Positions 457-34,061 of a stretch of 64,000 nt of DNA are shown one piece after another. A program made the position numbers and the translations under genes. Origin of the DNA: Cohnella cholangitidis (GTDB lineage Bacteria > Bacillota > Bacilli > Paenibacillales > Paenibacillaceae). Location of the stretch: assembly GCF_014107495.1 (NCBI RefSeq), contig NZ_CP041969.1:1733001-1797000 (forward strand). The letters are read 5' to 3'. Numbering within the stretch: position 1 is the first letter of the stretch; every line of letters begins with the position of its first letter. Under the pieces are notes generated by a model that saw only the letters and a program-made list of their open reading frames with translations, did not search any database and had not been told where the DNA came from.

Positions 457-1902
457 CTACTCGATTTTCACTTTGTCGAAGGAGCCTTTCTGAAGCTTGG
501 CTGCCGTATCGTCGAGAATTTTTTGCAGGTCTAGGTCGCCCTTGCTCGTGAACACCTTCTGGATCGTGTTGGCCATCTCGCCATAGAAGGCTTGCGTCTC
601 ATACGTCGCTTCGGGCTTCGATTCCATCAACTTGCTTAATTCCGGGGAATACTTGTAGACGTTATCATGCTTCGCCAAGATAGCCTCGTATTTCTTGCCA
701 TACTCGGAGCTATCGTTCCAGTAGTTAATCAACTGCGGGACGTAAACTTGTTTTTTGGCTTTCTGCGAAGTAATTTGCGCGTCGATCGAATCCAAGTACG
801 CATCGGTGAAATATTCGTCGACGACAAAATCGAATGCGGCTTTCTGCTGTTCCTTCGTAGCCAATCCATTGATGACTTTATAATTTCCTCCGGCTACTCC
901 GACATGCTTGCCGCCTTTCGTGACCGAAGGGATCGGATACAGCAGCACGTCGTCTTTGTTGATTCCGCCTTGATTGATCGCTCCGTCGAGCGCATTGCCG
1001 CTTCCGCACATGACCATCGCGCCGCGTCCTTGATTGAATAGCGTTAGCGCGTCTCCGTACCCTAACGCCCAGTTTTTCGGAATGACGTTCGCGTCCTTCA
1101 AGTCCTTGTAGAATTGCAGCGCCTTAAGCCCCGCTTCCGAGTTGAAGGCTGCGGTTACTTTGCCATCGGCAACGGTCTGAACCTCGCCGCCCGCGGAATA
1201 AAGGAAGTTCGTCCAGTTCCATCCCGCTTCCGTGCCTTTGCCCATCGGAATGAAGCCCGCAATGCCTTTGGCCGGATCGTTGACTGCTTTCGCCGCCTCG
1301 ATCAGTTCATCCCATGTCCAATCGAGCGGAGGCAGCGGAACGCCCTTCTCTTCGAATAGCTTCTTATTGATCGTGATCGTCATCCCGTAAGCATCGATCG
1401 GAATGCCGTACGTTTTGCCCTCGATAATGTACGGCGCCATGGCAAACTCGTTTAGATCCTTAGCGTAAGGCCAACTGGCCAGATGATCTGTCAGATCGAT
1501 GATCCACTTTTTGCCCGATAACAGTTTGCCTTCAGTCGCCCACGTAGTGAATTCGGTTTGCGCGCTGTTGGAAGCCATCTTGATCGCGATCTCCGTATTC
1601 TCATACTTCCAGTATTTAGGGGTAATCTTTACATTCGGATTTTTGGCTTCGAAGCGCTTGATCTTCGCGTTCAAAGTGGCGTTTTCCTCGGTTTTGTCCG
1701 CAGGGAACGCGTACGCTATGATACTGACAGGATCCGCATTGGCCGGAGAAGGCGATGCTTCCGCCGTGCTTCCCTCCGTTGGTTCCGATGAAGATGCCTT
1801 AGGCGACGCCCCGTTCGATGCCGACGGACTATTATTGCCGCTTCCGCATCCGGCCAGCACGATCACGAACGCCAGCATGCTCACTAGTAAGCTCTTTTTC
1901 AT
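457..1902 (-). CDS. Extracellular sugar-binding lipoprotein of ABC importer I
   Basis: Family-1 extracellular solute-binding protein of 481 residues. It has a lipoprotein signal (MKKSLLVSMLAFVIVLAGCGSG; Cys of LAGC is lipidated), then a Ser/Pro-rich linker (about residues 20-55) and the SBP_bac_1 fold, with segments such as 'TINKKLFEEKGVPLPPLDWTWDELIEAAKAV' and 'GRGAMVMCGSGNA' that recur in CUT1 binding proteins. It would capture a carbohydrate outside the membrane and hand it to the permease at 1..384. I chose the ATG at 1902; an in-frame TTG two codons upstream (1908) sits nearer to the AGGGG site and cannot be excluded. It lies directly downstream of a kinase/regulator pair that probably controls it. 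The ligand is unknown. Confidence 0.93.
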   Translation of the reverse strand: MKKSLLVSMLAFVIVLAGCGSGNNSPSASNGASPKASSSEPTEGSTAEASPSPANADPVSIIAYAFPADKTEENATLNAKIKRFEAKNPNVKITPKYWKYENTEIAIKMASNSAQTEFTTWATEGKLLSGKKWIIDLTDHLASWPYAKDLNEFAMAPYIIEGKTYGIPIDAYGMTITINKKLFEEKGVPLPPLDWTWDELIEAAKAVNDPAKGIAGFIPMGKGTEAGWNWTNFLYSAGGEVQTVADGKVTAAFNSEAGLKALQFYKDLKDANVIPKNWALGYGDALTLFNQGRGAMVMCGSGNALDGAINQGGINKDDVLLYPIPSVTKGGKHVGVAGGNYKVINGLATKEQQKAAFDFVVDEYFTDAYLDSIDAQITSQKAKKQVYVPQLINYWNDSSEYGKKYEAILAKHDNVYKYSPELSKLMESKPEATYETQAFYGEMANTIQKVFTSKGDLDLQKILDDTAAKLQKGSFDKVKIE

Positions 1903-2027
1903 TTTCAACCCTATCCCCTCTCGGTTTGATTAGTTTTACATTTTTATCATAAAGTCCCGTTATATCCCACGTCGATGTGCGATATATCGTTTGAGAAGGG
2001 ATAAATTATGATCGGCGCCTTTTTTGT

Positions 2028-3356
2028 TTAATTTTTGAGTTCCGATGGATTGACGCCGAAATGCTTCTTGAAAATTTTACTGAAGTGCTCCGGGGATTCG
2101 TAGCCGATCTCGTCGGAAATCTCGTATCTGCGCATATCCGTCGTCAGAAGCAACCGTTTGGCCTCATCCATTCGCAGCTTCGTCACGTAATCCCACAGGT
2201 TCATGCCCACGATTTTTTTGAACAAGTAACTAAGGTAATTCGGGCTTAAACGGATCGATTCCGCGATCTCCTGCAGTTTAAGCCCTTTCTGGCGGAAATT
2301 TCCGTCGATATACTGAATGGCGCTATGGATAAAAGAGTTGTTGTCGTCGATGATCTGCTTCGTGACGGGAATGCCCCCGGCGGAAGGCTGCTCCTCATGC
2401 CTGCCGAAATCGCCGATGTAGAACACGTTATGATCGCTGTGCACCCCGCTCCATCGGATCGCTTCGTTCGCTTCCCGGAAGAGCGCCACCCAGCTAGGGA
2501 TCCCTTCCCGGATACGGCTGATTCCGATCACGTTCCTCAGATGAATGAAATTCAAAAGATTGTTGTGCAGCAATTGGGCGATCATCGTCTGTTCGTTCAA
2601 TCCCGTCGGACTAGCCATCTCCTCCTGCGTGAACTGCAGCACGATCGCGATCGAGTGGCTTCCGCAATAAAAAACGATGCTGTCCCAGCGACTCAACGTC
2701 TCCTCCACGACATTCAGCGCGGCGTACCTTAACAAGTTGCGATCGCGGAAGGAGCGAATATCGGCCTCGAATAGGCCTGCTTTCGATAAGTTCAGCTCTA
2801 TGGCTAGAATGCAGTAATAAGGACCTTCGAATCGGCAACCCAAGAAGGCGGACACTTCGTCGACTTCATCGTCCGCGATCCCTTCCGACACAAGCTCGTT
2901 CAGAATATGGTTGCGATTCGACGCCATATCCTCGAAGACGAACTTCTGATTAAACGTGGAATCGGTTAACGAACGTTGCCGGGTATCCCGTTCCGTCAGG
3001 AACGAATGGACAGCCCTGACTAGCTCCGCTGGAACGACCGGCTTCACGATGTATTCCTTCACGCCGAACCGCAGCGCCTTCTGCGCGTATTCGAACTCTC
3101 CATGCGCCGACAAGACGACGATGGGCACCATCGGATTTTCCGTGAATATCGTTTCTATTAATTCGATTCCGCTCATCAAGTCCATCTGAATATCGGTGAT
3201 GATCAGGTCGATTTCCTCCAAGCGGATATAATCGAGCGCTTCGAATCCGTTATTCGCAATGAACACCTCCGCGATACCGATCCCCGAGTTCATCAATACG
3301 GTTGCGACGCCCGTGCAAATCATCGGTTCATCGTCCACGACCAGAACGTGATACAT
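2028..3356 (-). CDS. Two-component response regulator, YesN/AraC type
   Basis: A 442-residue response regulator. The receiver domain (residues 1-120) has the acidic pair VVDDEP, phospho-acceptor Asp55 in 'LIITDIQMD' and the conserved Lys in 'EYIVKPVVP'. A long middle region follows, then a C-terminal AraC-type double helix-turn-helix (about residues 340-440: 'LKLQEIAESIRLSPNYLSYLFKKIVGMNLWDYV' and 'RRYEISDEIGYESPEHFSKIFKKHFGVNPSELKN'). It starts at an ATG with GAGAGGGGAA upstream, 20 bases after the kinase gene, so the two are co-transcribed. By family analogy it activates the sugar importer I genes immediately downstream. Confidence 0.95.
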   Translation of the reverse strand: MYHVLVVDDEPMICTGVATVLMNSGIGIAEVFIANNGFEALDYIRLEEIDLIITDIQMDLMSGIELIETIFTENPMVPIVVLSAHGEFEYAQKALRFGVKEYIVKPVVPAELVRAVHSFLTERDTRQRSLTDSTFNQKFVFEDMASNRNHILNELVSEGIADDEVDEVSAFLGCRFEGPYYCILAIELNLSKAGLFEADIRSFRDRNLLRYAALNVVEETLSRWDSIVFYCGSHSIAIVLQFTQEEMASPTGLNEQTMIAQLLHNNLLNFIHLRNVIGISRIREGIPSWVALFREANEAIRWSGVHSDHNVFYIGDFGRHEEQPSAGGIPVTKQIIDDNNSFIHSAIQYIDGNFRQKGLKLQEIAESIRLSPNYLSYLFKKIVGMNLWDYVTKLRMDEAKRLLLTTDMRRYEISDEIGYESPEHFSKIFKKHFGVNPSELKN

Positions 3357-3376
3357 ACGTTTCCCCTCTCTTTCCC

Positions 3377-5152
3377 CTACTCGCTTGCATGGTCCGTAGT
3401 TGTCGGAATCGTCATGACGACGCGGGTTCCGCCCCCCGTTCGTTGCTCGAAACGCAAGCCGTAACGCTCTCCGAAATGCAGCTTGATCCGTTTGTTAACA
3501 TTCATAATACCGAACCCCTCCCGAGTATGGGTACCGTCGGCGATGGCGTTCAATTTGCCGATATCCGCCGACCTATACCCGTTATCCTCGATCGAGATCA
3601 GCACTTCATGCTCCCGGGTTTTAATCGCTATCCGCAATTGCCCTTCCTTGTCCATTTTGCGGATTCCGTGCAGGATCGCGTTCTCTACGAGAGGCTGCAG
3701 CACGACTTTCGGAATGAGATTCGGCTTGGCCTCGTCGTCGATGTCCCAATGGGTCGCGAAAGCATAGTTGTTGCGCTTCAACTGCAATCTCAAATAGGCT
3801 TCGATATGGTTAAGCTCTTCCGCGATCGGGATCAGCGTTTTCCCGCGGCTTAAGCCGATGCGCATCAACAGAGAGAGGTCCCGGATCATCTCGGCCGATT
3901 CGGCGTTGCCCTCGATCGTCGTTCGCCAGAAGATCGATTCCAGCGTGTTATACAGCAAATGGGGATTAATCTGGGAATGCAGGATGGTGAGCTCCGCTTC
4001 CTTATGCTTAAGCTCCAGTTCGTACTTATCGTGAATCGTTTGGTTAAGCCGTTTGGTCATCTCGATGAACGCATTGTTAAGCAGGCCGATCTCGTCTCTG
4101 CGACTCACCTTGTATTCGTTCGTAAGCGGTCTTCCGGGCTCGAATGATCGGCTAAGCCTGGCCAGCCTGGATAGAGGGCTCAGAATATGCCTGAAAAAAT
4201 AAATGCTCGCGACGAGCAGTACGCAGAAATAGACGATCATCAGGTAGTTGACGAGTTGTCGCATCGCTTCGTGCTCTCCGATGATAGAGCTGATCGGTAT
4301 CTTAAACAAAAGTTTAGTATCGCTGTTCATGCTCTTATGAATCGCATACAGCCACGAATCGCTCCCATCGCGATCGATATATACGCCTTCGGGGGAACGG
4401 AAAATATCCTGCGGAAGACGGAAAACCGAGCCGATGTCGAGCCCGGACGTGTTCGCCAGCACCTCATTGGCTTGATTCAAGAGGACGATTTGCCCGTCCT
4501 TCGGAATCTTAAGCGACTCCAGATCCTTCTGGAGCAGCGAATCCAAGCCCGTCATCACGATCACGCCGCTCGGCGTCCCGTCGTCCAAATCGTTGTTCAT
4601 GCTTCGTATATAAGCGGCAGTCTTGATGCCCTTCCGATTATCCCCCAGTTGGTTCATAATCCGGATAATGCCCGTTCCCCGCGCGTTAATCGCGAATTGG
4701 AACCAACTGTTCGAGGAAGTATCGCATGCGAAAAACACCCCGTTCGGCTTAACGTCGGAAGGAGGCGCGAAAGGATAATCGTCCGCTATGGCGGGAATGA
4801 ACACCGCAAAGTTGATGGCATTCTTCGAATAACTCGTCAGCAGCTTATCGAGAAGAAGATATTTCTGCAACCGATCGTACTCGCTAAGCTCGATCATATT
4901 GAACATCAGTTGGGTTTCGGGGGTGAACATCAGCTTCTCCGTCGTCCCGTCGACCGACATAATATCCCGATCCAAGGTCAGATGGCTTGTCTTGGCCAAT
5001 TCGAACAGCGTATCCCCCATCTGGTCTTCGGTGATCTCCGCTACCTTAACCGAGACGATCCAATAAGCAAGCAAGATCGGGATAACGATAAGGAAAATAA
5101 TGAACACGATCAACTTCTGAATCAAATTCATTCTCGTTAACCATTTCAACAT
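3377..5152 (-). CDS. Sensor histidine kinase, YesM type
   Basis: A 591-residue membrane sensor kinase. There is a first transmembrane helix at residues 12-33, an extracytoplasmic sensing region, a second helix near residues 295-318 (LVNYLMIVYFCVLLVASIYFF), a HAMP region, the His_kinase domain with 'LHSQINPHLLYNTLESI' (His phosphorylated) and a HATPase_c domain with N-box 'QPLVENAILHGI' and glycine box 'GFGIMNVNKRI'. This is the architecture of LytS/YesM-family kinases that sense extracellular sugars, usually together with a binding protein. The partner is the regulator 20 bases downstream. Ribosome site GGACGG before the ATG is modest. Confidence 0.95.
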   Translation of the reverse strand: MLKWLTRMNLIQKLIVFIIFLIVIPILLAYWIVSVKVAEITEDQMGDTLFELAKTSHLTLDRDIMSVDGTTEKLMFTPETQLMFNMIELSEYDRLQKYLLLDKLLTSYSKNAINFAVFIPAIADDYPFAPPSDVKPNGVFFACDTSSNSWFQFAINARGTGIIRIMNQLGDNRKGIKTAAYIRSMNNDLDDGTPSGVIVMTGLDSLLQKDLESLKIPKDGQIVLLNQANEVLANTSGLDIGSVFRLPQDIFRSPEGVYIDRDGSDSWLYAIHKSMNSDTKLLFKIPISSIIGEHEAMRQLVNYLMIVYFCVLLVASIYFFRHILSPLSRLARLSRSFEPGRPLTNEYKVSRRDEIGLLNNAFIEMTKRLNQTIHDKYELELKHKEAELTILHSQINPHLLYNTLESIFWRTTIEGNAESAEMIRDLSLLMRIGLSRGKTLIPIAEELNHIEAYLRLQLKRNNYAFATHWDIDDEAKPNLIPKVVLQPLVENAILHGIRKMDKEGQLRIAIKTREHEVLISIEDNGYRSADIGKLNAIADGTHTREGFGIMNVNKRIKLHFGERYGLRFEQRTGGGTRVVMTIPTTTDHASE

Positions 5153-25626: not shown

Positions 25627-27507
25627 TTATACCATGACCTTGCAAATATCGTTCGTGAATTCCACGGGATCGCCGATCGGCAAACCTTCGATGAGCAACG
25701 CTTGATTGTACAGCAAGCTTGTATACAGGTTAAGCTTCTCTTGGTCTTTCCCGAAAGCGTCCTTCAACGACTGGAACACCGCGTGGTTGACGTTGATCTC
25801 CAGCACCTTGTCGGCCTTGACGTTCGGATTGTTCGGCATCGCGTTCAGGATTTTCTCCATCTCGATCGTCACTTCGCCTTCGGTGGTCAGGCAGACCGGA
25901 TGGCTCTTCAATCTCTTCGAAGCCCGAACGCTCTTCACCTTGCCGGACAGGAACTGTTGCATAGAATCGAACAGCTCCTTGTTGTCGTTAGCTTCCGCTT
26001 CGGATTCTTTATCTTTCTCGTCCGCTTCGATGCCGAGATCTCCGCTCGATACCGATTTGAATTCTTTGTCCTTGTACGACATGATCATCTTGATCGCGAA
26101 TTCGTCGATATCGTCCGTGAAATACAAAATTTCGTATCCTTTGTCGGTTACCAATTCCGTTTGCGGAAGCTTCTCGATTCTCTCGATCGATTCGCCGGAC
26201 GCATAATAGATGTACTTCTGATCTTCGGGCATTCTCTCCACGTACTCATCCAAAGTAACGACTTTCTTCTCTTTGGAGGAATAGAACATCAACAAATCTT
26301 GCAGCACGTCTTTGTGCATGCCGTAATCGTTGTATACTCCGAATTTAAGCTGCCTGCCGAACGACTGGTAGAACTTCTCGTACTTCTCCCTCTCGTCCTT
26401 CAAGAGGCTTTGCAGCTGGCTTTTGATTTTGTTCTGGATGTTCTTGGCGATCAGCTTCAATTGCCGATCGTGCTGCAGCATTTCCCGCGAGATGTTGAGG
26501 GACAAGTCTTCCGAATCGACCATCCCTTTCACGAAACCGAAGTAATCCGGCAGCAGATCGGAGCACTTGTCCATGATCAATACGCCGTTGGAATAGAGCT
26601 CGAGCCCTTTTTCGAATTCCTTCGTGTAATAATCGAAAGGCGTATTCTCGGGAATATACAAAATGGCTTGGTATCTCACCGCGCCGTCTACGCTAAGATG
26701 GATATGTTTCAGCGGCTTGTCGAAACCGTAACGCTTCTCGTTGTAGAAGTTCTCGTAATCCGCATCGGTCAGCTCGCTTTTGTTTTTGCGCCAGATCGGA
26801 ACCATGCTATTGACGGTTTGCTCTTCGGAGTAGTCCTCGAACTCGCCCTCGGCGTCTTCCTTAGGACGTTTGCCCGTTACGTCCATCTTGATCGGATAGC
26901 GGATGAAATCGGAATATTTCTTAATGATCGCCTTCAGCCGGTACTCTTCCAAGTACTCGTCGTACTGGTCTTCCTCGGTATTGTTTTTGATCTTCAGGAC
27001 GATCTCCGTTCCTACGGAATCCTTGGCTGCCGGCTCGATGGTATAGCCTTCCGCTCCGGTAGATTCCCATTTGAACGCCTCGTCGCTGCCTAGCGCCTTG
27101 CTTGTTACGGTGATGACGTCCGCCACCATGAAAGCCGAGTAGAAGCCGACCCCGAATTGGCCGATGATATTATGCCCGTCCTGGGCTTCGTTCTCCTTCT
27201 TGAAGGCGAGCGAGCCGCTCTTCGCGATGACCCCGAGGTTGTTCTCCAATTCTTCCTTGGTCATCCCGATTCCCGTATCGGCGATCGTTAACGTTCTGTT
27301 CGCCTTGTCGGCGGTGATTTTAATATAATAATCCTCTTTGTTGAATACCAATTGGTCGTCGGTTAATGCTTTGTAATAGATTTTGTCGACCGCGTCGCTA
27401 GCGTTGGAGATCAGCTCGCGCAGGAAAATTTCCCGTTGCGTGTAGATGGAATTAATCATCATCTCAAGCAACCGTTTGGACTCTGCTTTGAATTGTTTCT
27501 TAGCCAT
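25627..27507 (-). CDS. htpG: Molecular chaperone HtpG (Hsp90 family)
   Basis: A 626-residue cytosolic ATP-dependent chaperone, the same length as Bacillus HtpG. The N-terminal GHKL ATPase shows '[21 protein letters not shown]', '[27 protein letters not shown]' and '[16 protein letters not shown]'. The middle domain has '[22 protein letters not shown]', and the C-terminal dimerisation region is complete. ATG at 27507 has AAAGGAGC 10 bases upstream; the in-frame ATG at 27534 would add nine residues not seen in the family. A CIRCE operator in the promoter region implies control by the heat-shock repressor HrcA. Single gene with its own terminator. Confidence 0.98.
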
Positions 27508-27565
27508 TAGATTGGTGCTCCTTTCGATATGCATTCCTTAACAAAGATCTGTTCGGTCGCAGCGG

Positions 27566-27592
27566 TTAGCACTCTGACCGAACGAGTGCCAA
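27566..27592 (-). promoter_or_regulatory. CIRCE element (HrcA operator) upstream of htpG
   Basis: TTAGCACTC-N9-GAGTGCCAA at 27566-27592, one mismatch from the perfect CIRCE inverted repeat. It lies between the promoter -10 and the htpG start codon. Confidence 0.9.
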
Positions 27593-27655: not shown

Positions 27656-27697
27656 TTAAAATAGAGCGAGGAGCTCAAGGCTTTCCCCGAGCTCCCC
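27656..27697 (-). terminator. Terminator of the riboswitch-controlled operon
   Basis: GGAGCTC (27670-27676) pairs with GAGCTCC (27689-27695), followed on the minus strand by CTCGCTCTATTTTAAAT. The stem is strong; the T-run is short. Confidence 0.55.
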
Positions 27698-27711
27698 GTT
27701 TCTCTCGCTTC

Positions 27712-28701
27712 TCAATACTGCAGCAACAGCGACACGTTCTGCCAACCCGCGCCTACTGTCCAGAAGACAAGATAATCGCCCCTGGCGACCTTGCCTTCCT
27801 TCAACGCTTCATACAGCGCCACGAACGGACTGTTCGCAGCCGTATATCCGTATCTATCGCCGATGTACGGAACTTTGTCGACATCGATCCCCAGACGTTC
27901 GGATACCAGCTTCAAATTGCCTATCGAGAATTGGGAGAACAAGAAGCTCCCGATCTCTTCTTTCGCCAAGCCGTTGCGTTCCAGCAAAATCCGAACCGTG
28001 TCTACCGCCGAATCCACGCATACGGAATCGTCGAACGGCACGAATTTGATCTGCGCGTCCTTGGCCGTATACTCCTCGCGATAGAGATTGGACAACCCTT
28101 GGGCGGGGAATAGCGAGTTGTCGATGACCGAAGTATCCGTTTGGTACACCGAATCGATGAATCCCCGGGTATCCGAGGATCTCTCCAGAATAACGGCCAC
28201 CGCCGAATCCGCGAAGTTGGAATGGTACACCGGCTCGTTCGGACTATGAACCGAGATCGAATCGGCGCCCACCACCAACGCCCGCTCGATGCGGGGATTC
28301 CCAAGCATGTAGCGGCTTGCTTGTTCGACCGCGACGAGCAATCCCGCGCAGTTCGCGTTAATATCGAAGCAGACCGTATTCAGATCCCCGCCCAACGCGT
28401 TATGTAGCTTCAGAGCATTGCTCGGGAGCAAATATTCGGGTGTCTGAGACGTGAAAATAATGAGGTCGATATCCCTTCCCGTCAGACCGGAGCTTCGCAG
28501 CACGTTATTGGAAGCTTCGATCGACATCGTCAGCGAGTTCTCGCCCGGGTCGTCGATCACGTATCTTTTGTCTCTGCCCAGCGCCCTAAGCAGTCCAGTA
28601 ACGTCAGTGCCTTGCTTTTGAAATCGTTCGATATAATAATCGTTCGCCACTTCGTTGGCCGGATGATAAATCCCGATATCGCGAATTCGGACCGCTCCCA
28701 T
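27712..28701 (-). CDS. 3-oxoacyl-ACP synthase III (KASIII/FabH)-like protein with altered catalytic triad
   Basis: A 329-residue thiolase-fold protein of FabH length. 'RIRDIGIYHPANEVAND', 'IDLIIFTSQTPEYLLPSNALKLHNALG' and the nucleophile segment 'CFDINANCAGLLVAVEQASRYM' (Cys118) match KASIII. At the other two triad positions the FabH 'PHQAN' is replaced by 'LFSQFSIGN' (no His) and 'DRHGNTSAAS' by 'DRYGYTAANS' (Asn to Tyr). This points to acyl transfer or another non-decarboxylating reaction rather than normal fatty-acid initiation. ATG at 28701 with AGGGGGGAAGAGC upstream. Last gene of the riboswitch-led operon, 30 bases after the STAS-like gene. Confidence 0.88.
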   Translation of the reverse strand: MGAVRIRDIGIYHPANEVANDYYIERFQKQGTDVTGLLRALGRDKRYVIDDPGENSLTMSIEASNNVLRSSGLTGRDIDLIIFTSQTPEYLLPSNALKLHNALGGDLNTVCFDINANCAGLLVAVEQASRYMLGNPRIERALVVGADSISVHSPNEPVYHSNFADSAVAVILERSSDTRGFIDSVYQTDTSVIDNSLFPAQGLSNLYREEYTAKDAQIKFVPFDDSVCVDSAVDTVRILLERNGLAKEEIGSFLFSQFSIGNLKLVSERLGIDVDKVPYIGDRYGYTAANSPFVALYEALKEGKVARGDYLVFWTVGAGWQNVSLLLQY

Positions 28702-28731
28702 GCTCTTCCCCCCTCGATTATGCTCCATGAA

Positions 28732-29073
28732 TTAAACTTCTACGATTTCAAGATTATTCAGTTGAACCGCGCGCCCTACCCGTGACAGCTGCATCTTCAG
28801 AATCGGATTTTTGGCGATACGCAGAACGACTTTCTTGAAGCCGTCCTTCTTATACAGTTGGAAGCAGCCTTCCAGAATCGGCAACGTATCGGGGGAGGAG
28901 ACGTTCAATTTCGTGCAGTCGATCTCAATATCGTAATCCGGAACGGAGATCGAAGCGATGCTCTTCTGATAAGCCTCTATCGACTTCATTCCATCCTCGG
29001 TCGTGAACGTTCCCTCGACTTGCGCCTTGAATACATTGTTTGCTTGATCCAATTGAATGTTAAAGCTACCCAT
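28732..29073 (-). CDS. Small STAS/SpoIIAA-like protein
   Basis: A 113-residue soluble protein. The pattern 'FKAQVEGTFTTEDGMKSIEAYQKSIASISVPDYDIEIDCTKLNVSSPDTLPILEGCFQLYKKDGFKKVVLRIAKNPILKMQLSRVGR' alternates strands and helices in the order expected for a STAS or SpoIIAA-like fold, but no signature is strong enough to be certain. It may be a regulatory or adaptor subunit. GGAGG lies 8 bases before the ATG at 29073. It sits between the thiamine-diphosphate enzyme (34-base gap) and the KASIII-like gene (30-base gap). Confidence 0.8.
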   Translation of the reverse strand: MGSFNIQLDQANNVFKAQVEGTFTTEDGMKSIEAYQKSIASISVPDYDIEIDCTKLNVSSPDTLPILEGCFQLYKKDGFKKVVLRIAKNPILKMQLSRVGRAVQLNNLEIVEV

Positions 29074-29107
29074 AATAAATTCCTCCATTTAGTCGCGAAT
29101 TTTATTT

Positions 29108-30736
29108 TTACTTCATAAGCGCCTTCAATCGGTCCAATATCGGAGCCGGCTCGCTGCCGTCCGTGTTGACCTCGATGATGCAAGGCCCGTCCAGCTCCCT
29201 GACGAAATCCGGGATGTTCCGAACGTCTTCCATCCGATCGACGGACATCGCGCGAATGCCGGCCACGCCCATCATTTCCGCGATCGAGATTCTCTCCTGC
29301 TTGTAGTCCGGTATCGTCCGGTCGTAGAGAAACTTCTGCCCCCTCACCACGTAAGAAAGCATCGCATTATTGATGATGAAGTACACGACCGGAATCCGAT
29401 ATTCCTTAGCCGTCAATATATCCATGCCGTTCATGAAGAAGCAGCCGTCTCCGGCGAATACCGCCACCGGGCGGCTCGGATCGGCAGCGTACAGCCCCGT
29501 GCCTCCGGCGATCGCGGATCCCATCGCGCCGTAATCCAGATTAATCTCGAAATCTCCGCCGTGCGGCACCTCGAGAAACTTCAATACAAAATTCGTGAAT
29601 TCCCCGATATCGCAAACGTATCGCGTATCGGAAGGCATAGTCGATTTGAGCCGTTCCAGAAACAACCTCAGCGATAGGCCGGTATGATTGCGCTCGTACG
29701 GCTCGTTCAATGCCATGCTCCGACGATAATCCGCCTTGGAAGAACGGCGGCTGTTCCGAATCAAATAGGGCAACACCTCCTTTAAATCTCCGCGAACGGA
29801 TACATCCGTCTTGAACACTTTGCCCAGCTCTTTCGGATCGCGATCGACGTGAATAACGGTTCTTCCCGCAACGAGCACCTCGTTAAAGTTGCAGGTAGAG
29901 GCTTCCCCCAAGCTTGTTCCCAAAATGAGAATGCATTTCGGTTGACTTGAATTCACGTATTCGCTAGCCGCATCGGTACTGGAAAAGCCATAGTTGCCTA
30001 GATTCAACTCGAAGTCGGTCGGAACGACGCCTTTGCCCGCCGGGGTCGTAATGATCGGCCATTGAAGCCGTTCGCTTAGCTGCATGATCTCGGAGGAAAA
30101 TCCTCTTCCTCCGCGACCTACCATAATCAACCCTTCGGAGCTTTTGTTCATCAACTCCGCCGCGCGTTCCAGCCGTTCTCTTTCAGGGATGACCGCTTGA
30201 AGTTCAGCAAGGTTTAGAGGCTCGGGCAAAGAACCGTGAACCTCGCCTCGTTGCACATCGATCGGAATCGACAAGTACACCGGGCCGCAAGGCGGCGTCA
30301 TGGCGATTCGGATCGCTTTGTCCAATTCGGTCATCACGTCGGCCTCATCCATCACCGTAGCGCTGTATTTGGTCACCGGCTTCACCATTTGCTCGCCGTC
30401 AAGCTCTTGGATTGCCCCTTTGCCCATCTGCCAACGGTTAATGTAACCCGCGATAACAAGCATTGGAGCTTTGGCGCGTTTCGCGTCCGCAATCCCGTTC
30501 ATCATGTTGCCGACGCCGACGGCACCCGCTCCCACGCAAACCGACAGCTTGCCCGACGTACTGGAATATCGGGCGGCCATGTACGCGGCCCCGGCTTCGT
30601 TCTTCGTGATGATCGGCTTAATGTCGACATCGATCAATGAATCGTACAACGGACCGACGATGCCTGCAGGTATTCCGAATAGGTATTCCACTTCATTGGC
30701 CTTCAAAACTTTTAAAATCGCCTCTGCCATCTTCAT
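29108..30736 (-). CDS. Thiamine-diphosphate-dependent enzyme (acetolactate synthase/decarboxylase type)
   Basis: A 542-residue member of the acetohydroxyacid synthase/benzoylformate decarboxylase family. The PYR domain carries the cofactor-activating Glu47 ('ITKNEAGAAYMAARY'); a central Rossmann domain (about 190-330) follows; the PP domain holds the ThDP motif GDG...NN (residues 429-457: 'GDGCFFMNGMDILTAKEYRIPVVYFIINN'). Such enzymes decarboxylate 2-oxoacids and often join the aldehyde unit to an acceptor, making acyloins or acetolactates. Here the partners are chemoreceptor, GAF and KASIII-like proteins rather than ilv genes, so a specialised product is likely. GAGGAAGG precedes the ATG. 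Confidence 0.92.
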   Translation of the reverse strand: MKMAEAILKVLKANEVEYLFGIPAGIVGPLYDSLIDVDIKPIITKNEAGAAYMAARYSSTSGKLSVCVGAGAVGVGNMMNGIADAKRAKAPMLVIAGYINRWQMGKGAIQELDGEQMVKPVTKYSATVMDEADVMTELDKAIRIAMTPPCGPVYLSIPIDVQRGEVHGSLPEPLNLAELQAVIPERERLERAAELMNKSSEGLIMVGRGGRGFSSEIMQLSERLQWPIITTPAGKGVVPTDFELNLGNYGFSSTDAASEYVNSSQPKCILILGTSLGEASTCNFNEVLVAGRTVIHVDRDPKELGKVFKTDVSVRGDLKEVLPYLIRNSRRSSKADYRRSMALNEPYERNHTGLSLRLFLERLKSTMPSDTRYVCDIGEFTNFVLKFLEVPHGGDFEINLDYGAMGSAIAGGTGLYAADPSRPVAVFAGDGCFFMNGMDILTAKEYRIPVVYFIINNAMLSYVVRGQKFLYDRTIPDYKQERISIAEMMGVAGIRAMSVDRMEDVRNIPDFVRELDGPCIIEVNTDGSEPAPILDRLKALMK

Positions 30737-30766
30737 GCGAATACCTTCCTCTCTCCTCCGATATCT

Positions 30767-31201
30767 CTAAAAAATCTCTATATGCTGTTCGACCAATCGT
30801 TCCGCATTCGCAATTTCTTGCTCGCTGAACTCATGAAGCTGCCCGATCGAGGCCACGACCACGATCCCCTCCACGTCCGCGCCTTTCATAACGGGAATAA
30901 TCAACAAACTATCGATACCGAATAGAAAAAACTCCTCCGACGAGCGCCTATCGTTTTTGACATCCTGAATAGCCACGGCGCGAGGCTCCCGTACCACGTC
31001 CGTAAGCAAAAAATCATGAGCGATATATACCGGGCTTTGCGCATGTACGCTTTTCCAGCGCTCGATGCCCAGAGCATCGGTATTGGTCTTTAATACCGGA
31101 TTAATGCGGCCGTCCGCAATCCGGTGATAAGCGATATCCTGCACACCCGTTGCTCCGCTTAAGAGCTCGAACAGATGGTTTAACCTTTCCGCGTTCATCA
31201 T
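30767..31201 (-). CDS. GAF domain protein
   Basis: A 144-residue stand-alone GAF domain: N-terminal helix 'AERLNHLFELLSGATGVQDIAYHRI', core 'PVYIAHDFLLTDVVREPRAVAIQDVKNDRRSSEEFFLFGIDSLLIIPVMKGADVEGIVVVASI' and C-terminal helix. It may bind a small ligand or a nucleotide. It starts at ATGATG with GAGGGGGTAG upstream, 9 bases after the chemoreceptor gene, so the two are probably translated together and may work as one sensory unit. Confidence 0.9.
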   Translation of the reverse strand: MMNAERLNHLFELLSGATGVQDIAYHRIADGRINPVLKTNTDALGIERWKSVHAQSPVYIAHDFLLTDVVREPRAVAIQDVKNDRRSSEEFFLFGIDSLLIIPVMKGADVEGIVVVASIGQLHEFSEQEIANAERLVEQHIEIF

Positions 31202-31210
31202 CTACCCCCT

Positions 31211-32473
31211 CTATACCTCGAATAAACCGATCTGCTCTTTGAGCTGCTTCGCTTGTTCTTGTAACTTGCGGGCCGACTGCAACGACTCTTCCATCGCCCC
31301 TAGCTGTTCCTCCGAACACGTCGCGATTTCCTTCGTTCCGGCCAGGGCGGTTTCCGTTATCGTCGCGGTTTCCCTTACCGAGCTTAGAATTTGATCGGCG
31401 CTGGAGCTTATTTCTTCGGTGACGCTGGATACCTCCTGCACCTTGTAAGACACCTGCTCCGTCAGCTGAACGATCTGGTGAAAGGACTGTCCCGCCTCCG
31501 TTACCAACCGCGTACCGGATTCCACCTCGATCATGACCTGATTCATCGCGTCCATCGACAAGCGGGAGCCGTTCCGGATATCCGTTACCGTCTTGGCAAT
31601 ATCCTTCGCCGAAGACGAGGATTGATCAGCCAACTTGCGAATCTCGTCAGCCACGACGGCGAAGCCTCGTCCGTACTCGCCCGCCCGAGCCGCTTCGATC
31701 GCGGCGTTCAGCGATAGCAAGTTAATCTGGCTTGCGATCTCCGCCATGATGACGGTTACGCGGTCGATATCCTCCGTACGCCGGTTCATCTTTCCGACCG
31801 CATCCGATGAAACGAGAGCCGTTTCGTGGATCGTCATCATCTGGGCAATCGCATGGTCGACCGTCCGATTGCCGTCGCTTGCGCGTTGGGCTACCTCCGC
31901 CGTTTCGTGCGCCAACCCCTGTGACGATTCGGCAATGTGTTCCATTCCCTTGCTGACTTCCTCTAGCGTCAGCATGTTAACCCGCGCGCTTTCGGCGATC
32001 GACTCGCTCCCCGAAGCAATCTGCCGAATGGATTCGGAAATCCCCACGACCATGTCCGTGCAAAATTCCGTATTGCTTGCCAGCGAGGATGACGTGCCCG
32101 CCACGGAATCGGATAACTCCGAGATGCGACCGAATACTTCTCGCATGTTGGCGGTATGGGGGATCGAGCCGGCATTCACCTCAACCGAGTACCCGCCGCC
32201 CGTCGGCGACGCGCCGATCCCGATGAACCGGCATAGGCGGTCCGCGATCAGATAAGAACCGACGACGCCGGCAATCCCGAACAGTACGGCAATACCGGCG
32301 CTTTGCCAAAACGCGCTCGTTCGGACGAACAGGATAATGCCGTACGCGAGCGAAAATGCCGCAACGAATAGTGCCATCGACAGCGCAAGTTTCTCAGCAG
32401 CCCTGTCCCTTAAGCGGAATAATCTCAATTTCCTTCTCCTCCAACGAAATCTGATTCGGTCATTCTCGATCAT
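31211..32473 (-). CDS. Methyl-accepting chemotaxis protein without extracellular sensor domain
   Basis: A 420-residue chemoreceptor. Two adjacent membrane helices (about residues 28-50 and 57-78) are separated by only a few residues, so there is no room for an external ligand domain. The cytoplasmic signalling domain has the hairpin-tip motif '[41 protein letters not shown]'. Input must come through the membrane, from inside the cell or from a partner such as the GAF protein encoded next. First gene of the riboswitch-controlled operon. The start is unsure: ATG at 32473 has only GGGGG directly upstream, while a strong AAAGGAGG (32500-32507) precedes a two-codon ATG-AAA-TAA. Confidence 0.9.
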
Positions 32474-32481
32474 GCCCCCGA

Positions 32482-32507
32482 TTATTTCATCCTCAACCGC
32501 CTCCTTT
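32482..32507 (-). other. Possible two-codon minigene before the chemoreceptor
   Basis: AAAGGAGG (32500-32507) is followed 9 bases later by ATG AAA TAA (32482-32490), 8 bases ahead of the chemoreceptor ATG. Ribosomes stopping here could re-initiate at 32473. It could also be chance. Confidence 0.3.
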
Positions 32508-32553
32508 GTCTTCTCTGTTTGTCCGGACCGTGCACAGAGCCATAAATGACAAC

Positions 32554-32582
32554 AAAAAAGGACTTTCTGCTTAGAAAGTCCT
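32554..32582 (-). terminator. Riboswitch expression-platform terminator
   Basis: AGGACTTTCT (32559-32568) pairs perfectly with AGAAAGTCCT (32573-32582), followed by six T residues on the minus strand. It lies between the aptamer and the chemoreceptor, with no upstream minus-strand gene to terminate, so it acts inside the leader. Confidence 0.88.
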
Positions 32583-32608
32583 AGCTGCCAATTAACGAAA
32601 ACCTAAAT

Positions 32609-32704
32609 GAATAAGATTGGCAGCCCGGCGATCATAGCGGATGCTTTAGACCCGTGGCTTTGCGTCCCAGCCTTTCGGTTGGTTTGCGTTTTACACCTTA
32701 TACA
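32609..32704 (-). promoter_or_regulatory. Cyclic di-GMP-I (GEMM) riboswitch
   Basis: The minus strand contains the conserved core of the GEMM-I aptamer: GCAAACC (32681-32687), a GAAA tetraloop in CCGAAAGG (32671-32678), GGGACGCAAAGCC (about 32656-32668), then GGGTCTAAAG and CGCCGGGCTGCC. A P1-like stem pairs GTATAAG (32697-32703) with CTTATTC (32609-32615). Nine bases at 32616-32624 are fully complementary to 32584-32592, next to the terminator, and may be part of the switch. It senses c-di-GMP and controls the five-gene operon 32473-27712. Whether ligand turns it on or off cannot be told by eye. The rest of 32705-32981 is AT-rich and holds the divergent promoters; I see no gene in it. Confidence 0.93.
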
Positions 32705-32981: not shown

Positions 32982-34061
32982 ATGTCAACAAAAACAAAAT
33001 TTATTTCCTTATCCCTGCTGCTCATCGTCGGAATGATTACCGTCAGCTTATTGGCGATTCAATGGTATCCTTCTCATTTTCAATGGCTTAAGAAACCCGC
33101 ATCGCCCTATCACGGGCTGAAGCCCGGACCCCAAGAACCTAATGGCACCTACTATTCCAATCAGGTGCTCGTGCTTATGTATCATGACGTCGGTCCGGAT
33201 AACGGCGATGGGAAATCTTTATCCGTCGCTAACTTCGACAAGCAGCTGGAGCTGATGAGAGACAATAATTTTCACTGGATCACGATGGACCAATATAGGG
33301 ACTTCATTCTTCGTTCGACGCCCGTCCCGGACAATGCCGTTCTGCTAACCTTCGACGACGGGTATGAATCGCTATACGCGCATGCCTATCCTTTGCTGCG
33401 CAAATATCAAGCTCCGGCAGCGGCTTTCTTGATCGTTAATAAGGTTGGCGATCCTAAGGATGCATTCCCAAGGGTTACCTGGGAACAAGTTAAGGAAATG
33501 AATAACAACGGAATCGATTTCCACAGCCATACGTTCGATTCGCACCATTACGTCCCGACAACGTCGGAGACGGGCGGACTCAAGTCTATGATCGCCCGCC
33601 GAATGTATCTAAAGGACAAGCAGCGCCAGGAAACCGAGCAAGAGTACGAGCGGCGCGTAACGGACGATCTGAGCAAAGCCAATGACGTCCTGGAACAGAA
33701 GCTCGGCAAGCCCAACCATATATTGGCGTTTCCTTACGGGGCGTTCTCCGAACCGCTCTTGAGCATTGCGAAGCGGCTCGGCATCGACGTCACCTTGACC
33801 GTCAAAAGCGGAATGAACGCGCCCGGTCAAACGAACGGATTCCGGTTAAACGCGGGAGGGACGGACAACGATCCCACCCTGCAGCTCGCCCTCATGAAAC
33901 AGGCGGATCAACTGCTCGGCGACGGACATTTCGATGCTCCTTCCCCCTTGCGCCCATTCGCGATCATCGCGGCTTTCGGTCTTCTCGTCCTGATCGGTCT
34001 CGCTTGGATCTGGACCGGCTGGCGGTTCATGAGAGGCAAGAAGCCGCGCATAAGCCCATAA
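32982..34061 (+). CDS. Membrane-anchored polysaccharide deacetylase (NodB domain)
   Basis: A 359-residue protein with an N-terminal membrane helix (residues 7-28), a NodB-type deacetylase domain (about 60-310) and a C-terminal helix (about 325-348, 'FAIIAAFGLLVLIGLAWIWTGW'). Catalytic motifs: 'LTFDDGYESLY' (Asp-Asp), 'DFHSHTFDSHHY' (zinc His pair) and 'LAFPYGAFSE'. 'VLMYHDVG' at the domain start resembles PgaB/IcaB poly-N-acetylglucosamine deacetylases, so a cell-surface polysaccharide substrate is likely. GAAGGAGAA precedes the ATG. It is divergent from the c-di-GMP riboswitch operon and not under that switch. Confidence 0.92.
   Translation: MSTKTKFISLSLLLIVGMITVSLLAIQWYPSHFQWLKKPASPYHGLKPGPQEPNGTYYSNQVLVLMYHDVGPDNGDGKSLSVANFDKQLELMRDNNFHWITMDQYRDFILRSTPVPDNAVLLTFDDGYESLYAHAYPLLRKYQAPAAAFLIVNKVGDPKDAFPRVTWEQVKEMNNNGIDFHSHTFDSHHYVPTTSETGGLKSMIARRMYLKDKQRQETEQEYERRVTDDLSKANDVLEQKLGKPNHILAFPYGAFSEPLLSIAKRLGIDVTLTVKSGMNAPGQTNGFRLNAGGTDNDPTLQLALMKQADQLLGDGHFDAPSPLRPFAIIAAFGLLVLIGLAWIWTGWRFMRGKKPRISP

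Follow-up and report, generated by a model that had tools for sequence, protein, structure and literature searches.

Two kinds of described pathway come closest to the gene group reported here. In carbazole biosynthesis, a thiamine diphosphate (ThDP)-dependent enzyme is described as joining indolepyruvate to pyruvate, after which a relative of 3-oxoacyl-acyl carrier protein synthase III (KASIII) couples the resulting acid to an acyl-acyl carrier protein (ACP), with the CqsB1 condensation proceeding by decarboxylation (PMC7466098). In the xenocyloin (xcl) pathway, XclB and XclC are described as ester-forming condensation-like enzymes (PMC4425429), while homologues of the carbazole enzyme NzsH are reported to make the acyloin core of sattazolin in Clostridium beijerinckii (PMC9822442). 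Here we analyzed a 64,000-nucleotide stretch of the Cohnella cholangitidis genome (assembly GCF_014107495.1, contig NZ_CP041969.1, positions 1,733,001 to 1,797,000; hereafter the window), in which an RNA leader is followed by five co-directional minus-strand genes encoding a methyl-accepting chemotaxis protein (MCP), a GAF-domain protein, a ThDP enzyme, a STAS-fold protein and a KASIII-like protein. We interpret this locus and its relatives as a riboswitch-controlled biosynthesis unit for an acyloin-type small molecule, to which one form adds a chemotaxis branch, and assign this reading a probability of about one half.

The leader begins with a GEMM-I (cyclic di-GMP-I, or c-di-GMP-I, family) aptamer (32615..32697, minus strand), which scored 74.9 bits against the Rfam model RF01051 (curated cut-off, 35) and was aligned with 20 other aptamers. 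An intrinsic terminator (AGGACTTTCT..AGAAAGTCCT plus a T run; 32549..32582, minus strand) lies between the aptamer and the MCP gene, whose start is 141 bases from the aptamer. The MCP gene (31211..32473; MCPsignal, 1.1e-42) is followed, all on the minus strand, by genes for a stand-alone GAF-domain protein without cysteine (30767..31201), the ThDP enzyme (29108..30736; three TPP Pfam domains), the STAS-fold protein (28732..29073) and the KASIII-like protein (27712..28701), with a terminator-like hairpin 3′ of the last gene (27667..27698, minus strand). A preliminary description, made from the sequence alone, had proposed a GEMM-I aptamer and terminator heading a five-gene set, and the minus-strand RF01051 match, the terminator and the gene order are all present.

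We compared the window with two sets of loci. For set 1, 295 genomes of the family were searched for the STAS-fold protein, which matched in 115, and 40 regions were selected from 39 of these, chiefly on score; set 2, from a separate collection, comprised the best 80 of 230 stretches with KASIII relatives, to which all set 2 counts refer. Loci with the window's ThDP enzyme, STAS-fold protein and KASIII-like protein were called type I and those with another ThDP enzyme beside the same pair type II, so the presence of these three genes within either class is by definition. The STAS-fold protein was patchily distributed (115 of 295 family genomes; 6 of 37 same-genus genomes, including the window's own), and a KASIII gene lay near it on the same strand in 38 of the 40 set 1 regions, the others having it on the opposite strand (L085) or not at all (L090). 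The KASIII of Cohnella mopanensis was 97% identical to that of the window.

Set 2 revealed 15 type I loci, 44 type II loci (other ThDP enzyme, CMD-like gene identified by eye, STAS and KASIII), 17 STAS–KASIII pairs without an adjoining ThDP gene and 4 KASIII loci without a STAS gene, the last being ThDP-KAS-KAS cassettes in Xenorhabdus and Pectobacterium plus two loci in Paenibacillus. Hosts were mostly Cohnella and Paenibacillus, the remainder being other Bacillota except for Xenorhabdus and Pectobacterium. A STAS-fold gene was found near KASIII in 76 of 78 Bacillota loci examined, and ThDP genes of three kinds adjoined in 61 of the 80 loci. At 1437-3500 (minus strand) in the Metabacillus malikii locus L168, a ThDP gene resembling that of type II (41%) is accompanied by a CMD-like gene, both on the strand opposite the STAS–KASIII pair and ~6 kb from it. 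Genes flanking type I loci mostly differ, the exceptions being common flanks in L097 and L100, similar downstream genes in L103 and L105, and htpG as the next gene in both the window and L091; L094 and L101 (the contigs of L054 and L059) end near the operon. The conserved clustering anticipated for related genomes is therefore seen in the enzyme core, which recurs across genera among mostly different neighbors.

The aptamer recurs as well. With a GEMM-I model built from set 2's own aptamers, upstream matches were present at 8 of the 15 type I loci and at 18 of the 44 of type II, while in set 1 the Rfam model matched 11 of 17 type I and 4 of 6 scanned type II loci (L074 and L087-L089, also type II, fell outside the Rfam scan, and a match at L164, 4.7 kb from the STAS gene, was left out of the counts). 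The riboswitch-headed gene group is real and recurrent: we directly observe the RNA element, the order of the genes, the families and predicted folds of the encoded proteins, and the repeated occurrence of the core.

The KASIII-like protein contains both KASIII domains (PF08541 and PF08545) and matches KASIII profiles from PDB, but of the FabH Cys-His-Asn triad only the Cys is kept, with Ser in place of His and Tyr in place of Asn. These three residues are invariant across 11 aligned KASIII-like sequences. We rejected an ordinary FabH identity because the His and Asn are replaced; three further KASIII matches in the same genome are only 25–29% identical to this protein. Relatives of 53–54% identity occur in Xenorhabdus bovienii and Pectobacterium, that of X. 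bovienii (54%) in a ThDP–KASIII–KASIII cassette resembling the xenocyloin locus. We take this cassette (L131) to be xcl itself, an assumption that extends to the role of XclA. Like the window, it has a ThDP enzyme adjoining KASIII-like proteins, but the two ThDP enzymes are 21% identical and the cassette has two KASIII-like genes where the window has one plus a STAS gene. The first KASIII-like protein of the X. bovienii and Pectobacterium cassettes lacks the Cys, as does PqsB, which stands beside PqsC, and has no counterpart in the window operon. No aptamer, chemoreceptor or STAS match was found in these cassette loci.

The carbazole pathways (CqsB3/CqsB1 and NzsH/NzsJ) share the ThDP/KASIII-like pair, but the window's five genes include no carbazole cyclase, aminotransferase or ACP gene, and the decarboxylative condensation by CqsB1 contrasts with a window protein lacking the FabH His and Asn. 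Among solved structures, the window's ThDP enzyme is closest to CsmA (8x3z, 391 bits), followed by BbmA (256), with acetolactate synthase I at 171. Because ThDP enzymes of the three settings among the compared loci share only 21–29% mutual identity, their products may differ.

The STAS-fold protein has a SpoIIAA-like fold, although no Pfam or NCBIfam STAS profile matched any of 19 members at E-values up to 0.1; a CRAL_TRIO_2 match in 1 of the 19 was rejected as a hint. It differs from SpoIIAA/SiaC-type STAS proteins in its KASIII-like partner, in the absence of a STAS profile match and in that none of the five genes encodes a kinase or phosphatase. Three loci carry a second STAS-like gene (55–57% identical) 3′ of KASIII (L060, 5305-5643; L066, 8131-8592; L067, 7483-7860). 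The preliminary description knew of no system with this gene set; none appeared in the open-access literature searched for parts of it, but the enzyme pair has known relatives. What sets the gene group apart from known ThDP/KASIII-like acyloin-type biosynthesis is the STAS partner, the triad-less KASIII, the riboswitch control and, in one form, the chemotaxis genes.

By analogy with these pathways, the likely product of the gene set is a small, acylated, ketone-like compound. An acyl group would be loaded on the Cys of the KASIII-like protein and then moved onto a hydroxyketone made by the ThDP enzyme, with the STAS-fold protein acting as a dedicated partner of the KASIII-like protein, perhaps as a regulator or carrier-protein docking subunit. 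All of the reactions are inferred from sequence comparison, as are the pairing of the STAS-fold and KASIII-like proteins, the sensing, the riboswitch ligand and the direction of switching. The earlier proposal of a ketone-like metabolite agrees with the closest relatives of known function, namely CsmA, the ThDP/KASIII-like pairs of carbazole biosynthesis and the KASIII-like acylases of xenocyloin.

The low identity (21%) of the window's ThDP enzyme to that of the X. bovienii cassette is one of several observations that weigh against the acyloin reading, here and in the leaders and chemotaxis genes below. Type I loci L061, L062, L064 and L065 have no GEMM-I match at the Rfam cut-off despite upstream DNA being present, L096 and L102-L105 (a list sharing genomes with the first) have none at E-values up to 5, and for type II a match is missing at 26 of the 44 loci. 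In addition, STAS–KASIII pairs stand without an adjoining ThDP gene in 17 of the 80 set 2 loci. We consider it unlikely that the pair serves lipid or acyl-carrier metabolism, with the STAS protein as a carrier-protein-binding subunit, ThDP enzymes as optional suppliers and no diffusible product. The adjoining of three kinds of ThDP genes in 61 of the 80 loci argues against this, riboswitch control would be unusual for housekeeping lipid steps, and the ACP match of the STAS-fold protein is at the level of fold only, with many STAS domains scoring above ACP.

Control of the unit by c-di-GMP, as first proposed, is supported to the extent that a GEMM-I leader heads the genes; c-di-GMP is the likely ligand of the window aptamer, with the caveat that one ligand-contact base is altered. 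With numbering that we take to follow Vc2, the aptamer has C at position 20, which presumably contacts a ligand base, A at 47 and C at 92, so the G20/A47/C92 contact set is incomplete. It resembles c-di-GMP-I riboswitches in fold, score, A47, C92 and its leader with terminator, and differs in having C20 where the known class has G20. Since G20 and C92 are reported to be less conserved than A47 in these riboswitches (PMC9049102), G20 is a weak criterion. The aptamer also scored 64.3 bits against RF03167 (c-di-GMP-I-GGC; curated cut-off, 59), but we rejected this variant because the consensus GACGCGAAG has G where the window's GACGCAAAG has A (A47), taking replacement of A47 by G as the defining feature on our reading of the RF03167 consensus.

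Position 20 varied among the 12 scorable type I leaders, with C in 7 (the window, L051, L056, L057, L058, L060 and L092), G in 3 (L052, L053 and L055) and A in 2 (L066 and L067), whereas all 18 type II aptamers had G; L063/L099 was left out because its aptamer is degenerate (38 bits) and the script and alignment letters disagree. The C20 leaders were spread over three lineages of a midpoint-rooted FastTree phylogeny of the ThDP and KASIII proteins (one deep node with support of 0.63). Counting only leaders that fit the pattern at all other positions, the exact C20 pattern occurred in 14 of 295 genomes, once each and 6 times in a ThDP–STAS–KASIII operon, compared to 180 of 295 genomes for G20. 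Of the remaining eight C20 aptamers, six precede genes for secreted or surface-like proteins and two precede CheX-like genes (all assigned by eye), which makes c-di-GMP sensing, perhaps at altered affinity, the simpler reading.

It is quite unlikely that the leader instead senses another cyclic dinucleotide, C20 having shifted its recognition. Such a shift would fit the presumed ligand contact of position 20, the recurrence of C20 in 7 of 12 scorable type I leaders across three lineages, and a rare exact pattern (14 genomes against 180 for G20) of which 6 of 14 cases fall in this operon. There are precedents, as rare GEMM-I variants are described as sensing c-AMP-GMP (PMC7266159) and the structure of a G20A aptamer was reported with 3′,3′-cGAMP (PMC6274999). 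Retention of A47 and C92 argues against it, as do the lower conservation of G20 than A47 (PMC9049102), the ordinary c-di-GMP themes (surface-like and CheX-like genes, by eye) behind the eight other C20 aptamers, and the occurrence of G20 versions in front of this operon in further Cohnella. The six surface-like proteins (L177-L180, L183 and L184) have long Thr/Pro-rich tails by eye and are a possible adhesin set. Elsewhere in the window's own genome (5828 kb; L016, 1031-1230), a tandem pair of GEMM-I aptamers precedes a gene for a secreted-looking protein.

The GEMM-I RNA would act on transcription termination, with bound ligand perhaps favoring the terminator (OFF). In the window, a complement element, ATTGGCAGC (32584..32592, minus strand; leader positions 139-147), perfectly matches the aptamer 3′ strand GCTGCCAAT and abuts the terminator stem; the same motif occurs in the L051 and L092 leaders, and 9 of 13 type I leaders share the terminator 5′ arm GACTTTC. 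Type II leaders have CCTG near the start of the terminator 5′ arm (17 of 18) and CAGG in the aptamer 3′ strand (18 of 18), and in 4 of 18 the best anti-strand pairing shares 6 bases with the terminator arm (without a chance control); the L071 leader has such an overlap too. The overlap and the CCTG/CAGG complement hint that type II leaders may be OFF switches. On the same measure, likewise without a chance control, the other 14 of the 18 type II leaders showed no overlap; nor did 11 of the 13 leaders of type I, including the window, the remaining two (L093 and L053) overlapping by only 3 bases. The window's anti-strand and terminator coexist in the minimum-energy fold, which keeps both hairpins. 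In L053, the terminator hairpin forms when folded apart and disappears in the full-leader fold.

In the chemotaxis branch, the GAF protein would respond to a metabolite in the cytoplasm, which may be the product, and pass the signal to a chemoreceptor that has two close-set membrane helices and no ectodomain (by eye). A role for the receptor as an external sensor was rejected, as it has no ectodomain or ligand domain. The preliminary description proposed that the unit senses its own product or couples its metabolism to motility; sensing of the product by the chemoreceptor is not directly supported: besides the missing ectodomain, the N-termini of some relatives look soluble, and the MCP gene is absent from type I loci L066, L067 and L096 and the GAF gene from L061/L103 and L064/L102, so the branch is dispensable.

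These absences favor an alternative that is quite possible, though short of even odds, in which the enzymes and STAS protein form a biosynthesis unit and the MCP and GAF proteins are only co-regulated with it in deciding on motility and have no connection to its metabolism. This alternative is compatible with the enzyme part of our explanation, and it would also suit the type II riboswitch, which sits directly before the ThDP gene with no receptor behind it, and the two C20 aptamers heading CheX-like genes (by eye). On the other side, most of the type I loci that are not truncated by a contig end have GAF and MCP genes near those for the enzymes, and 33 of the 44 type II loci have a chemoreceptor gene upstream, either 86–96% identical to the L071 receptor or ~28–33% to that of the window, yet this count has no chance rate and related species share synteny. 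Returning to the acyloin reading, its most specific version is doubtful: that a C20 GEMM-I leader regulates the formation of an acylated alpha-hydroxy ketone by the ThDP enzyme, triad-less KASIII and STAS protein, while GAF and MCP from the same transcript steer the cell by product level, lineage-wide.

Two neighbors of the operon deserve mention. Just downstream, a CIRCE-like repeat (TTGGCACTC-N9-GAGTGCTAA; 27566-27592, minus strand), named after what we take to be the CIRCE consensus, precedes an htpG-like gene (25627-27534, minus strand). On the other side, a divergent polysaccharide deacetylase gene (32982-34061, plus strand) adjoins the riboswitch; it is PgaB-like, yet under that model's curated cut-off, and is possibly another biofilm-related gene.

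If the acyloin reading is true, c-di-GMP-type signaling would be tied to the synthesis of acyloin-type natural products and, in one form, to chemotaxis. The comparison also brings to light a KASIII subfamily that keeps the Cys without the classical His and Asn and is encoded near a STAS-fold protein, together with naturally occurring GEMM-I aptamers that differ at a ligand-contact base.

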